Assembly (NCBI GenBank): GCA_035308905.1
Contig: DATGFS010000030.1
Span: 62,001-126,000, forward strand
Reading direction: 5' to 3'
Length of the DNA stretch: 64,000 nucleotides
From: a bacterium
GTDB lineage: Bacteria > Sysuimicrobiota > Sysuimicrobiia > Sysuimicrobiales > Segetimicrobiaceae
The notes under the pieces are model-generated. The model was given only the letters and a program-made list of their open reading frames with translations. It made no database searches and had not been told where the DNA came from. Made by a program: the position numbers and the translations under genes. Positions 58,982 to 64,000 of this stretch are shown here, piece after piece (within the stretch, counting starts at the first letter, position 1; every line of letters starts with the position of its first letter).

Positions 58982-59809
58982 CTACCAGAGGTGCTTGAAC
59001 TTCTTCGCGAAGCGGCGCTCGAGGGCGTCCTTGTGCAGGTGGTAGACGGGGCAGTTCCTGATGACGCAGACCTGCAAGGCGGTGTTGCAGTAGGCGTTCG
59101 GCACGCGCCAGCAGTCGTGGTTGACGAAATAGGATCGGCAGACGCCGGTGCGCGGTTCGGCGGTCGCGGGACCCGGATCGTCCGCCTCGAGATCGTCCGC
59201 GGCCGGTGCGGCCGCGTCTCGCGCGTGACCTCCGGCGGCCCGGCCGCCGGGGCGCTGTGCGGGCTTGGCCTTTTTCGCCGTCTGAGCATCTTTGGCCCTC
59301 GCCGCGGGGCCGGGGACCTCAGGCCGCTTCGCCGCCTCTCGCGGCGGCGCCGGGCGTGACGCGGGCCGTCCCGTGCCCGACGCGTCCCTCGCCCTGTCGG
59401 CCGGCCGGAGAAACGCCGTCCCCGAGGTCAGTTCAAACGGCGCCGGTGCGTCTGCGGGCGCGGCCTCGCGCGGCAAGGCGGTGCCCGGTGCGCCGGCCTG
59501 CACGGGCGGTGATGAGTCTTCGCCTGGATCATGCGCGGCCGGCTTTGATGTCGTGGCGGCCGGCGACGGGCGGTCGCCGGCGACCTCGACCGGTCCACCG
59601 TTCAACGCCGGCGTGCCGGCGGGCGTGATGGCCGGGTCGGCGGCTTCGCGGATCTCCGCGTCGACGGCCTCGGGCTTGGTCGTCCCGGCGCCGGCGGGCG
59701 CCGCACCGCGCGGCGCCGGCTCGCGGCCCTCGAAGGCCACGAGATCGCGCGACGTGTCCTCGATGAGGTCTCTAATTCCGCGCCGGAGCGCGTCCCGCTT
59801 TTTGTTCAA
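58982..59809 (-). CDS. Pro/Ala-rich protein with a Cys-rich C-terminal module, next to ParA
   Basis: This 275-aa protein has a short basic/acidic N-terminal helix (KKRDALRRGIRDLIEDTSRD), about 170 residues of Pro/Ala/Gly-rich low-complexity linker, and a compact C-terminal module. The module carries five Cys in about 40 residues: CRSYFVNHDCW, AYCNTALQVC, RNCPVYHLHKD, then a basic FAKKFKHLW end. The Cys plus two His could bind zinc or a Fe-S cluster. Start TTG 59809 overlaps the end of parA by 38 bases, so the two are coupled. No ParB is present. It may be a ParA partner or cargo adaptor; function unknown. Confidence 0.6.
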   Translation of the reverse strand: MNKKRDALRRGIRDLIEDTSRDLVAFEGREPAPRGAAPAGAGTTKPEAVDAEIREAADPAITPAGTPALNGGPVEVAGDRPSPAATTSKPAAHDPGEDSSPPVQAGAPGTALPREAAPADAPAPFELTSGTAFLRPADRARDASGTGRPASRPAPPREAAKRPEVPGPAARAKDAQTAKKAKPAQRPGGRAAGGHARDAAAPAADDLEADDPGPATAEPRTGVCRSYFVNHDCWRVPNAYCNTALQVCVIRNCPVYHLHKDALERRFAKKFKHLW

Positions 59810-60644
59810 GGGCCATCACTTCCTTCGCGAGGCTCATGTACTCGGCCGCCCCGCGCGAGGAGGGCAGATGGACGAAGACCGGCACGCCGATCATGCTCGA
59901 CTCGACCAGTTTGATGTTGAAATGGATCGCGCTCGCGAACACCTTCTCGCCGAAATAGTCGCGGATGCCGTTTAAGATTTCCTTGCCGATGCTGGTGCGG
60001 GCATCGTACATCGTCGGCACCACACCGGCGATCTCCACCTCGTGGCCCGCCTCTTCCCGGACCGCCTTGAGCGTCCGCAGCAACTGCCGCATCCCGAGCA
60101 GCGCGTAGTAGTGGGTCTGAATCGGGATGATCACCTCGTTGCAGGCGACGAGCGCGTTGAGCGTGAGCAGGCCGAGGGACGGCGGCGTGTCGATGATGAT
60201 GTAATCGTACCGCTCCCGCAGCGGCGCCACTTTCTTGCGCAGCGTGTTCTCCCGGCCGATCCGCGAGGACAGCTCCAGTTCCGCGGCGGCGAGGTCGATC
60301 GAGGACGGCGCGAGGTCCAGGTTCGGGACGTTCGACGGCGCGATGATGCTCGCGAGGTCCGCGGACTGGCCGTTCGCGGGCGCGTCCTCGACCAGGATGT
60401 TGTACATCGTGCGCGTGAGCGCCGCGGGATCGGTGCCGAGGCTGACGGTGGCGTTGGCCTGCGGATCGAGATCGATCAGCAGGACCCGGCGTTTACTGAC
60501 GGCAAGGCACGCCGCGAGGTTTACCGCGGTGGTCGTCTTGCCGCATCCGCCCTTTTGATTGACGAGGGCGATGACGCGGGCCGTGGTCGTGCCGTCTGCG
60601 CCCAGGTCCCCGTCCTCCGTGCCGTTGCTCCCTGCCGGTCGCAC
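59772..60644 (-). CDS. ParA/Soj-family partition ATPase
   Basis: This 290-aa protein has the deviant Walker A NQKGGCGKTTTAVNLA, the Walker A' DLDPQANATVSLG and Walker B YIIIDTPPSLGLLT. A GTG start at 60644 gives a 25-residue N-terminal extension before the Walker motif. ParA ATPases move or place DNA, chemoreceptors or carboxysomes along the nucleoid. Here it is not beside ParB or an origin but beside cca and a Cys-rich protein, so a non-chromosomal cargo is possible. Confidence 0.88.
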   Translation of the reverse strand: MRPAGSNGTEDGDLGADGTTTARVIALVNQKGGCGKTTTAVNLAACLAVSKRRVLLIDLDPQANATVSLGTDPAALTRTMYNILVEDAPANGQSADLASIIAPSNVPNLDLAPSSIDLAAAELELSSRIGRENTLRKKVAPLRERYDYIIIDTPPSLGLLTLNALVACNEVIIPIQTHYYALLGMRQLLRTLKAVREEAGHEVEIAGVVPTMYDARTSIGKEILNGIRDYFGEKVFASAIHFNIKLVESSMIGVPVFVHLPSSRGAAEYMSLAKEVMALEQKAGRAPARN

Positions 60645-60660: not shown

Positions 60661-62028
60661 TCAGCGTTCTCCTCCGCCGGAACCCGGGCCGGCGTTCCCG
60701 GCGGTCTCGGCGCCCCCGCTTCCCCGCGCCAGCAGGCCGTCGATGAAGGCCAGCGCCTCGTCCCGGGTGCGGAGCCGTCCCTCGAGCCGCGCGTCTTCGA
60801 CGGCCTCGAGGATCGCCGCGACCCGGGGCCCGGCCGGGACCCCGCGGGCCAGCACGTCGTGGCCAGAGACCAGGCGGGCCGGCGGCGGCGGGGCCGCGGC
60901 GGCCCGCTCCGCCTCGGCGCGCGCCCACTCGTAGAGCGTGAAGTCTTCGTGGCTCGCCGCGCAGTCGGCGCGGTGCAGCTCGAGGAGCTCCGGAAAGATC
61001 TCATCGGCGAACAGCCGGCGCCGCTTCGCCTCGCGCATCTGCGGAAGATCCTTGAAGATCATGTGGCGCCCGACGAGCGCCGTCACGCGGTCGGTGTCGC
61101 GCCGCGGGAACCGGAGGCGCTCCATCACGCTCTCCGCGATCGCGGCGCCCCGCTCGTCGTGGCGGCTGAAGCGGATCCGGTCCGGGGCGTACTCGAGTGT
61201 CTCCGGCTTGCCGACGTCGTGCAGGAGCGCCGCCATCGCGAGCGCCGGCGATGGATGGCGCAGCGCCGCGACCGCCTGCCGCGTGTGCTCGAACACGTCG
61301 CCTTCCGGATGAAAGTTCGGCGGCTGCGGCACGCCGATCTCGGCCGCGACCTCCGGCAGCACGACGGCGAGCAGTCTCGCGTCCCGCAGCAGCGCGAGCG
61401 CCCGCCCGGGGTCGGGTCCGGTCAGCATGCGGACGAGCTCGTCGCGGATGCGCTCCGGGCTCACGGTACGCACGTCCGCGGCGTGGCCGCGAATCGCCTC
61501 GACGGTGTCGGGGTCGATCGTGAAGTCGAGCTCGGCGGCCAGGCGCACCGCGCGCAGCATGCGCAGCCGGTCGTCCGCGAAGCGCGCCGCGGCGTCGCCG
61601 ATCGCACGCACGAGGCGTGAGGCGAGATCGGCGCGGCCGCCCACGAAGTCGAGCACCGCGCCGGCCGCCGGGTCGTAGAACAGGCCGTTGATCGTGAAGT
61701 CGCGGCGCAGCGCGTCCTCGCGCGGGCCCGCGTACCGCACCGACGACGGATGCCGGCCGTCGAGGTACGGACCTTCCGTCCGAAACGTCGCGACCTCGTA
61801 GTCCCCGTCGTCCGCGACCACGCGGATCACGCCGAACGCCGCGCCGACGTCGACCGTGCGCGGGAACAGCGCAACGACCTGCTCGGGGCGGGCCGCGGTG
61901 GCGATGTCGTAGTCCGCGGCGGGCCGCCCCCGCAGCCGGTCGCGGACGCATCCGCCGGCAAGGTAGGTCTCGAACCCGGCGTCCCGAAGCCGCGCCACGA
62001 TCGCCGCCGCCGACGCGAACGTGGGCAC
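60661..62028 (-). CDS. cca: CCA-adding enzyme / tRNA nucleotidyltransferase
   Basis: This 455-aa class II nucleotidyltransferase has an HD domain. N-terminal GGCVRDRLRGRPAADYDIAT, DFTINGLFYDP, then RLRMLRAVRLAAELDF. The HD part contains ALLHDVGKPETLEY and SRHDERG. It repairs or adds tRNA 3' ends; the one tRNA in the window already encodes CCA, so repair is one likely use. GTG 62028 has GAGAGGG seven bases upstream. Confidence 0.92.
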   Translation of the reverse strand: MPTFASAAAIVARLRDAGFETYLAGGCVRDRLRGRPAADYDIATAARPEQVVALFPRTVDVGAAFGVIRVVADDGDYEVATFRTEGPYLDGRHPSSVRYAGPREDALRRDFTINGLFYDPAAGAVLDFVGGRADLASRLVRAIGDAAARFADDRLRMLRAVRLAAELDFTIDPDTVEAIRGHAADVRTVSPERIRDELVRMLTGPDPGRALALLRDARLLAVVLPEVAAEIGVPQPPNFHPEGDVFEHTRQAVAALRHPSPALAMAALLHDVGKPETLEYAPDRIRFSRHDERGAAIAESVMERLRFPRRDTDRVTALVGRHMIFKDLPQMREAKRRRLFADEIFPELLELHRADCAASHEDFTLYEWARAEAERAAAAPPPPARLVSGHDVLARGVPAGPRVAAILEAVEDARLEGRLRTRDEALAFIDGLLARGSGGAETAGNAGPGSGGGER

Positions 62029-62092: not shown

Positions 62093-62887
62093 TCACGGTT
62101 CTTCGGGAGCGGAGCGGCGGTCGCTGACGAGGGCACGCAGGCGCGCGAGGGCTTCGCGGAGGATGCGTGAGACGTGCATCTGGGAGATGCCGAGCCGCCG
62201 CGCGATCTCGGCCTGTGACAGATCGTCGAAGAACCGCATGCGGATGATCTGCTGCGCGCGCTCGGGCAGCCGGGCGAGCGCCCAGTCGAGCGTGGCGCGG
62301 TCTTCGAGCCGCTCGAGCGCCACGTCCTCGTCCCCCACGGACTCGAGGAGCGAGACGCTGTGTTCCTCGTCGCCGTCGCTGGTTTCCGCGTCGAGCGAGA
62401 CGAGGCTGTAGGCGCGCCCGACCTCCAGCGCCGAGATCACGTCTTCGAAGTCAACTCCGGTGAACTGCGCGATCTCGGGGATCGTCGGCGACCGGCCGAG
62501 GCGTTGAGACAGCTCTTCGATCGCCCGCATCAGCGTGTAGTTGAGTTCGCGCAGCCGGCGGGGGACGCGGATCGCCCACAGCTTGTCCCGGAAGTGCCGC
62601 TTGATTTCGCCGACGATCGTCGGCGTGGCGTATGTGGTGAACTCGATGCCGCGGGTGGGATCGTACCGGTCGATCGCCTTCAGCAGGCCGATCTGCGCGA
62701 CCTGAATGATGTCCTCGAGCGGCTCGCCGCGGTCCGCGAACTTGCGGGCGAGATAGATGGCGAGACTCTCGTGGGCGAGGGTCAGCTCCTCCCGGACGTC
62801 GGGACTGCGGTCCTCTTGAAACTTTTGGAAGAGGGCCCGGACTTGGTCCTTGTCCAGGAGCCGACGGCCCCGCCGCCGCGTCGCCAT
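62093..62887 (-). CDS. RNA polymerase sigma factor of SigB/SigF/SigG type
   Basis: In this 264-aa group 3 sigma-70 factor, region 2 reads LARKFADRGEPLEDIIQVA and KAIDRYDPTRGIEFTTYATP; region 3 follows. Region 4 contains RMRFFDDLSQAEIARRLGIS then the recognition helix MHVSRILREAL. It is preceded by an RsbW-type anti-sigma gene (stop 62892, start here 62887), the classic pair for stress or sporulation control. No anti-anti-sigma is visible. Confidence 0.93.
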   Translation of the reverse strand: MATRRRGRRLLDKDQVRALFQKFQEDRSPDVREELTLAHESLAIYLARKFADRGEPLEDIIQVAQIGLLKAIDRYDPTRGIEFTTYATPTIVGEIKRHFRDKLWAIRVPRRLRELNYTLMRAIEELSQRLGRSPTIPEIAQFTGVDFEDVISALEVGRAYSLVSLDAETSDGDEEHSVSLLESVGDEDVALERLEDRATLDWALARLPERAQQIIRMRFFDDLSQAEIARRLGISQMHVSRILREALARLRALVSDRRSAPEEP

Positions 62888-62891
62888 CCGG

Positions 62892-63338
62892 CTAAGCCTG
62901 GCGGCGTTTGAGGAGCCGAAGCTCGGTTACGCCCGACGCCGCGTCGTGATGCGCGTCGACCTCGTCGACGAGGCACTGCATGAGGAACAGCCCGAGCCGG
63001 CTCTCATCGATCGGCGTGTCACCGCCGTGGGCCGCGCCCGCTCCGTCTCTCGCCCAAGCCGGCGCCGGCACCCTCGCCGAGACGAGCACCTCGATAGCGC
63101 CCGGCGCCAGGACGAAGGCCGTCGTGAGCGGCTGCGTCCCGTCGGGCCCCGCGACGATCAACGCGGTGCAGGCCTCGCCCACGGCGATCTTGAGATCCTC
63201 GATCTCGTCGTAGGTGAACCCCTGCCGCGCCGCCACGGTCGCGGCGGTCAGCCGCGCCACGCTGACGAACTCCGGGCGGACGGGAATCGAGATCTCGACG
63301 CGTTCGTGCCCCTCGCGCGTCTGCCCTTTGGGCGCCAC
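62892..63338 (-). CDS. RsbW/SpoIIAB-like anti-sigma factor
   Basis: In this 148-aa GHKL-fold protein, blocks are VEISIPVRPEFVSVARLTA, IEDLKIAVGEACTALI (N-box region) and ESRLGLFLMQCLVDEVD (G-box region). In active kinases the N-box reads EACTNAI; here it is EACTALI, so the Mg-binding Asn is missing. It may still bind the sigma factor without kinase activity. GTG 63338 is chosen because no other start keeps the first strand. Confidence 0.82.
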   Translation of the reverse strand: MAPKGQTREGHERVEISIPVRPEFVSVARLTAATVAARQGFTYDEIEDLKIAVGEACTALIVAGPDGTQPLTTAFVLAPGAIEVLVSARVPAPAWARDGAGAAHGGDTPIDESRLGLFLMQCLVDEVDAHHDAASGVTELRLLKRRQA

Positions 63339-63339
63339 G

Positions 63340-63726
63340 TCAGTTCTCCGGTTCGCCAAAGTGTGTTGGCTCCTCCATGCCCCCCGCGGCGCCGCGCCCC
63401 GCGTCGAACGCGCGGCGCAGACGGTCGGTCCGTTCCTCAAACGCGGACCGCCCGCGCGACACCGCCTCCCCGGCCGCGTCCCGCGCACGGGACACGAAAT
63501 CGTCGGCGCCGGTGCGCACGCGGTCGGCGAAATCTCCGGCGGCCTGCCGGGCCTGTTCCGCGACGTCGTCGGCCGTTGTCCTCGCCCGATCGCGGAGCCG
63601 CTCGCCCTCGCGCCGGATGCGGTCCCGCGTCTCGCTGCCGGTCTGAGGCGCGAACAGCAGTCCGAGCGCCAGTCCGATCATCCCGCCAATGAAGATCCCG
63701 ACGGCAAAGTCACGGCGTTCGGTCAT
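63340..63726 (-). CDS. YtxH-like envelope/stress protein
   Basis: This 128-aa protein has a single N-terminal helix FAVGIFIGGMIGLALGLLFAP followed by a charged coiled-coil-like region with repeated Arg/Asp/Ala heptads (RDRIRREGERLRDRARTTAD). This matches the YtxH family of general-stress membrane proteins. ATG 63726 has GGAGGG six bases upstream. It follows a DUF948-type gene, the usual ytxG-ytxH order. Confidence 0.85.
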   Translation of the reverse strand: MTERRDFAVGIFIGGMIGLALGLLFAPQTGSETRDRIRREGERLRDRARTTADDVAEQARQAAGDFADRVRTGADDFVSRARDAAGEAVSRGRSAFEERTDRLRRAFDAGRGAAGGMEEPTHFGEPEN

Positions 63727-64000
63727 GCGTAGCCCTCCTCCTCTCGCGTCGAGGCCATAAGAACTGTATACCCTCGCGCAGCGCGGTAAGTAACCCCGCC
63801 GCGCTGGCCACGGACGGGCCCACCACATCCGCCGCCATGTAGCGCATCGCGGCGCCGGCAAGTTCCACGGTCCGCGCGGTCGCCGCGGTCAGACGATCCA
63901 TGCGTTCGACCGCCTCCGCAAGGCCGCCGATCGCGTCCATCGTCCGCTCCGCCTTGGCCGTCGCCTCGCGCAGCTCCGTGATCAGCGCCGGCAGCGTGCC
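63710..64000 (-). CDS. DUF948/YtxG-like protein, partial (5' end outside window)
   Basis: The minus-strand frame is open to the right edge. Visible residues LPALITELREATAKAERTMD, then GGLAEAVERMDRLTAA and MRYMAADVVGPSVASA, match the C-terminal part of DUF948 proteins, which have one membrane helix and a long amphipathic helix. Its stop overlaps the YtxH start by 17 bases. Confidence 0.7.
   Translation of the reverse strand, partial: GTLPALITELREATAKAERTMDAIGGLAEAVERMDRLTAATARTVELAGAAMRYMAADVVGPSVASAAGLLTALREGIQFLWPRRERRRATHDRTP

Follow-up and report, generated by a model that had tools for sequence, protein, structure and literature searches.

A second ParA and its cysteine-rich neighbour in the Sysuimicrobiota: a probable positioning pair of the ParA/MinD type

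Known ParA partners and the ParA2 locus

ParA/MinD ATPases organise most large bacterial cargos, and many of them are called orphans, with partner and cargo unknown. PomX, which acts in cell division, is a coiled-coil protein that forms filaments. The candidate phylum Sysuimicrobiota (CSP1-3), to which the DNA investigated here belongs, is an uncultured phylum of soil and hot springs, of which enrichment cultures have been reported (PMC11604079). Excerpts of three papers describe partners of ParA/MinD ATPases in which a basic peptide at the N-terminus is joined to diverse, unrelated cargo bodies (PMC7993993, PMC10241942, PMC12204374). ParB activates ParA via a short N-terminal motif in which hydrophobic residues surround one Arg or Lys (excerpts of PMC12462528), and McdB needs an invariant Trp at its C-terminus in order to associate with carboxysomes (excerpts of PMC11321042).

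We analyzed a window (the whole stretch of DNA under study, 64,000 nucleotides) from a genome of 4.0 Mb in 81 contigs. In this window a ParA gene, parA2, overlaps by 38 nt a gene for a Cys-rich protein, which we refer to as the adaptor. An earlier note on this DNA had described the overlap, which was borne out together with its coordinates and features. The locus comprises the following parts:

59772..60644, minus strand: ParA2, an orphan Soj-type ParA ATPase (Pfam AAA_31, 4.1e-60; orthologue in 42/43 genomes of the phylum)
58982..59809, minus strand: gene of the Cys-rich putative adaptor, an ORF of 275 codons with a TTG start within the 3' end of ParA2
59723..59809, minus strand: N-terminal helix of the adaptor with the ParB-like, putatively ParA-activating peptide (RDALRRGIRDLI, residues 5-16; score matrix test, helix seen when a short homologue was modelled)
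59150..59722, minus strand: Ala/Pro/Gly-rich linker of the adaptor, predicted to be disordered and variable in length (composition; in the short homologue the linker has pLDDT <50)
58985..59149, minus strand: C-terminal five-Cys module of the adaptor with an invariant Trp at its end (alignments; all-helical model)
60661..62025, minus strand: CCA tRNA nucleotidyltransferase, the conserved upstream neighbour (Pfam PolyA_pol, 1.5e-34; upstream in 18/22 loci)

ParA2 and its putative ATPase-activating adaptor probably form a dedicated system, distinct from that of chromosome segregation, which positions a cargo on the nucleoid. ParA2 would bind ATP, dimerise and coat the nucleoid, as its motifs suggest. 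The basic N-terminal helix of the adaptor would touch the ParA2 dimer and trigger ATP hydrolysis, the disordered linker would serve as a flexible tether, and the five-Cys module, probably stabilised by metal, would together with the terminal Trp bind the cargo or oligomerise the adaptor on it. The proposal of an undescribed ParA-adaptor pair in the earlier note is supported by the constant pairing, the separate parAB and the ParB-like peptide; joint action and the positioning of cargo are what we infer from these. The pair looks like an undescribed system of the already known ParA/MinD positioning type. Among open-licence papers in PubMed Central we found none that joins Sysuimicrobiota with ParA, and nothing related to ParA with a cysteine-rich partner beyond the known positioning systems.

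With the ParABS system (Soj/Spo0J) the locus shares a Soj-like ATPase and a partner whose N-terminus resembles the ParB activating peptide. However, the adaptor has neither a ParB_N/CTPase domain nor an HTH according to Pfam, and ParA2 is located away from the origin, with parA1-parB elsewhere, beside dnaA. McdA/McdB, as far as excerpts of PMC11321042 and PMC12204374 describe them, likewise pair an ATPase of the ParA type with a small protein; this partner begins with a basic helix and shows long disorder and an invariant Trp near the C-terminus. In the same excerpts McdB differs by having no Cys module and by carrying its Trp in a short acidic or RVWPD motif, whereas the adaptor Trp closes a Cys-rich domain; the two were compared by features alone, and the shared Trp is a resemblance rather than proof of membership. 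PomX/PomZ and the modular ATPase-activating proteins (excerpts of PMC7993993) resemble the pair in that a short positive N-terminal peptide is joined to an unrelated cargo-binding part. PomX differs from the adaptor, which is mostly disordered and carries the Cys module.

Constant pairing and a separate chromosomal ParA1-ParB

Our survey set of 386 genomes consisted of 43 from the phylum and 343 from outside. By sequence search the five-Cys module was present once per genome in 41 of the 43 phylum genomes, a recurrence which makes it more than a chance pattern; ParA2 was present in 42. Every one of the 41 modules shares contig and strand with a ParA2 match and lies 200-914 bp downstream of it; the earlier note had allowed for a Cys-rich gene that occurs mostly without parA, which is not what we found. 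The exceptions are explained by a contig end in one genome (G024, where the contig breaks off right after ParA2 and the first part of the adaptor gene) and by low completeness in another (G037, 72% complete, with neither ParA2 nor module). Among named genome contigs 24 relatives were found, all of them from metagenome-assembled genomes; several of these contigs equal contigs of the phylum genomes in length. No relative of the module was found in 17 pattern stretches of viral contigs, nor did it match any of 72,556 plasmid records. For these reasons, and since the adaptor has no PHROGs family and the chromosomal context is constant, a phage or plasmid origin of the pair was rejected. One genome contained two ParA2-adaptor pairs, L074 (G018:C144) and L075 (G018:C160), one of them on a contig with masked stretches, representing either a true duplication or a mixed bin.

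The genome of the window encodes a second ParA (ParA1; C14:12168-12920) that is 46% identical to ParA2. It adjoins the genome's only ParB_N match, and dnaA is about 5-6 kb away. The earlier note was right that no parB lies near parA2, as parB is on another contig, beside dnaA; the situation which it considered damaging, a single ParA in the genome with parB elsewhere, is not found here. Because of this separate parA-parB pair beside dnaA we regard ParA2 as a true second copy, and for the same reason a chromosomal parA displaced from its parB was rejected as an explanation. In all four genomes examined dnaA is close to parA1. The gene next to parA1 starts with a ParB-type peptide in 19/20 loci of the phylum (drawn from twenty fetched loci and the window genome's own; L204 gave none and L206 was read in the wrong frame).

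We considered whether the pair acts on DNA or on division instead, in the manner of MipZ or PomZ or as a substitute for ParB, with the Cys module binding DNA, the divisome or the terminus. The universal, single-copy presence of the pair in the phylum would suit a function at the core of the cell cycle, and a Cys module of small size can serve as a metal-stabilised domain that binds DNA or protein. Furthermore, in the one near-complete genome, assembled as one contig of 3.15 Mb (G001), parA1 is located about 7 kb from dnaA and ParA2 1.50 Mb away, near the greatest possible distance of 1.58 Mb when circularity is assumed. This terminus-side position, however, was seen in a single genome, and the adaptor has no ParB_N, HTH or any other Pfam match and no known divisome domain. 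We therefore consider a role in DNA handling or division unlikely.

The motifs of ParA2 speak for the positioning model. A GTG start is possible at 60644, and the protein carries a deviant Walker A motif KGGCGKT as well as DLDPQAN and DTPPS. Among solved structures it matches ParA/Soj proteins most closely, with 8ray in first place (7.4e-60) and Thermus Soj (1wcv) after it. Across 15 ParA2 sequences K17, K22, T23, T24, D44, D46, P47, Q48, D138, P140 and P141 are invariant, and the Walker A, A' and B motifs show no variation. In B. subtilis Soj, R189 and R218 are the basic residues for non-specific DNA binding. In the set of 15, R202 in the DAR segment is invariant and the second basic site is K in 14/15, while 14/15 have F at a nearby position where ParA1 has R. 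At 20 positions ParA2 and ParA1 differ while being conserved within each group, and ten of these positions fall within segments 163-171 and 228-237; the ParA1 segment PRSVRLAEAPS, for instance, is HFNIKLVESSM in ParA2. Such ParA2-specific positions may insulate the ParA2 system from that of ParA1.

The gene neighbours at 22 fetched loci were of the housekeeping type and none pointed to a cargo. ParA2 and adaptor were adjacent at 22/22 (L037 is cut by a contig end). It could be argued that they are translationally coupled neighbours with no joint mechanism, their order being kept for expression only, as they are embedded in a conserved housekeeping run with the CCA-transferase upstream in 18/22 and a class II aminoacyl-tRNA synthetase (labelled by eye) downstream in 17/22 loci. 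Yet other neighbours vary, with a HAD gene in 14/22 and a SigB-like sigma factor in 5/22, every one of the latter from the window's own family, whereas the adjacency of ParA2 and adaptor does not. In addition both are jointly absent outside the phylum, and the N-terminal peptide of the adaptor fits a ParA partner, so that we give coupling alone little credit.

Two minor arrangements were noticed around the pair. At 62093-63861 of the window, genes for YtxH, an RsbW-like kinase and a SigB-like sigma factor stand ahead of the CCA-transferase and ParA2, an order that among the fetched loci occurs only in the window's own family. In some families a small conserved ORF, for which a Pfam search gave no family, is located just upstream of ParA2 (L041:8302-8706, L045:291-707, L085:1614-2009), with a FBPase gene (FBPase_3) nearby.

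Peptide, linker and cysteine module of the adaptor

Of 39 distinct copies, 32 have the two genes overlapping by exactly 38 nt; one copy shows a 29-nt gap and one an overlap of 110 nt. This count is the union of two measurements, with five copies lacking a measurement. The length of the adaptor product ranges from 123 to 366 residues over 39 copies, the shortest possibly reflecting a mis-picked start. In the window the linker comprises 192 residues, with 26.6% Ala and 17.2% Pro. The architecture of a short helix followed by a disordered Pro/Ala linker, as given in the earlier note, was retained; the linker length of 170 residues was not, and there is no fixed length across copies. Likewise the five Cys of the C-terminal module stood, but the window's module of 55 residues contains four His instead of two, none of them invariant. 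The adaptor protein matched no family in Pfam (cut-off 0.1), NCBIfam or PHROGs.

The N-terminus of the adaptor, REELRRGIRALI, resembles the ParA-activating peptide of ParB, RRGLGRGLGALI. A score matrix of 12 positions, derived from 19 distinct ParB peptides at 27 loci, was run along the N-terminal 40 residues of each of 35 adaptor copies. It scored highest on RDALRRGIRDLI or its equivalent, at residue 5 in 34 copies and at residue 4 in one. Shuffling gave p <= 0.01 in 31/35 copies, and 0.050, 0.093, 0.103 and 0.183 in the other four. Of the control N-termini 3/353 (0.85%) reached the median score of the adaptors and 21% reached the lowest adaptor score. As the copies descend from one gene, the match counts as one evolutionary observation, not 35. 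Alternatively, a basic amphipathic helix could have arrived at this likeness by convergence. Where the ParB motif LG[RK]GL has its first Gly, all adaptor copies have Arg (LRRG), a genuine departure from ParB; a few copies of f1 carry other changes. With its positively charged N-terminal peptide and a ParB-type match in 35/35 copies, the adaptor is similar to the modular ATPase-activating partners of ParA and MinD.

We also modelled the adaptor with AlphaFold2. For a homologue of 131 residues the model (mean pLDDT 64.5) shows a helix at residues 2-29 (pLDDT about 70-86 per block), a disordered stretch at 31-74 (linker under 50) and a helical module. The module by itself was modelled as small and all-helical with moderate to low confidence (mean pLDDT 72, pTM 0.43), and Foldseek found no PDB match for it. 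In several families a motif RPILRLVR occurs in the middle of the linker (L054-L070, alignment columns 122-129); the window's own family has it in altered form or not at all.

In 22 aligned relatives the five Cys are invariant and no His is; for this reason any metal would be held by Cys and not by His. The Cys are spaced C-x8-C-W-x6-C-x6-C-x4-C-P, and Trp is the last residue in 25/25 aligned modules. A search of NCBIfam with module members gave no family. The weak Pfam matches (DUF3109 at 0.069 in 1/22, DUF1439, Ank_4, DUF7830) and the only PDB sequence match, a scorpion toxin chain (E 0.18), were taken as chance. The notion that ParA2 is a metal or Fe-S handling enzyme of the Mrp/NUBPL type with the Cys-rich protein as its client or scaffold would suit the five invariant Cys and the common superfamily of Mrp-type ATPases (PF10609 matches ParA2 at 5.8e-10), but we find it very doubtful, as that match is confined to the Walker A region (residues 22-60), ParA2 over its whole length is best matched by Soj-type ParAs, its invariant columns hold no CxxC-type site but only C20, and a ParB-like N-terminal peptide would not be expected.

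Cargo candidates and relatives outside the phylum

If ParA2 and the adaptor position a cargo, two familiar candidates can be judged from their distribution. A shell protein of bacterial microcompartments (PF00936) was found in 1/43 genomes of the phylum (G036:C10:58020-58235), which is not that of the window; with such a distribution microcompartments are unlikely as a general cargo and were rejected as such. Genes for flagella and chemotaxis have been reported from no more than two of the phylum's families (excerpts of PMC11604079). Since the pair is present throughout the phylum, this counts against these structures as its cargo.

Profile searches of the 343 genomes outside the phylum gave no clear orthologue of either ParA2 or the adaptor. 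The ParA2 profile scored 452-528 bits inside the phylum versus at most 322 bits outside (386 genomes). ParB follows 8 of the 10 best outside-phylum ParAs that were fetched, the exceptions being the orphan ParAs of G260 (L177, C20) and G378 (L183, C55). In a tree of 45 ParAs, in which the outside-phylum members are a small sample picked by score against ParA2, ParA2 forms a single exclusive clade (100/100) apart from ParB-linked ParA. The deepest split (100/99) separates the ParB-linked ParAs from a group made up of ParA2 and the two orphans. The orphans are the nearest relatives of ParA2 in the tree, and each is followed by a partner other than ParB: in G260 a TPR protein that starts with LGKGIEAIF, a ParB-like peptide, and in G378 a PilM/PilN protein. 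In contrast to the adaptor these partners have other domains and no Cys module, and against the ParA2 profile the two ParAs reach 322 and 299 bits.

Going further, we tentatively suggest that ParA2 and a metal-binding adaptor could be a phylum-defining means of positioning an undescribed cargo, perhaps a redox- or metal-responsive one, and one branch of orphan ParAs that kept the ParB peptide and swapped the ParB body for a Cys module, a TPR or a PilM/PilN protein. The phylum-wide pairing fixes the partner of an orphan ParA, and the parts of this partner can be read as activating peptide, tether and cargo module. If the positioning model is correct, the Cys module would be a single-copy, universally kept bait for finding the cargo in these uncultured bacteria. 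It would also give a sequence rule for tracing the partners of other orphan ParAs, namely a ParB-like peptide at the N-terminus of a protein that otherwise has no ParB body.

A scan of genome contigs with the full-length adaptor gave 355 stretches of which none was confirmed; most pattern peptides lay in the variable linker. The module profile gave just three weak matches outside the phylum in the 386 genomes (G187, G347 and G188). Those in G187 and G347 are antisense or off-frame to long genes and were dropped as chance. The third (E 7e-4, one genome of 386) is a Cys-rich protein of 63 residues encoded beside a HD-GYP gene. As a single sequence it aligned to the module with a hhalign probability of 94.8% over 35 columns, Cys number and spacing agreeing only partly. 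Of 146 genomes around G188, 14 encode related small proteins. This suggests, without showing it, that the module may descend from a small CW-type metal-binding domain. The small Cys-rich CWEVP...CPVY proteins, to which the G188 protein and its relatives belong, are encoded directly 3' of HD-GYP genes (L071:5623-5811, L207-L212), match no Pfam or NCBIfam family and share the CW-type pattern C-x-A-Y ... C-W-E-V-P ... C ... C-P-V-Y.
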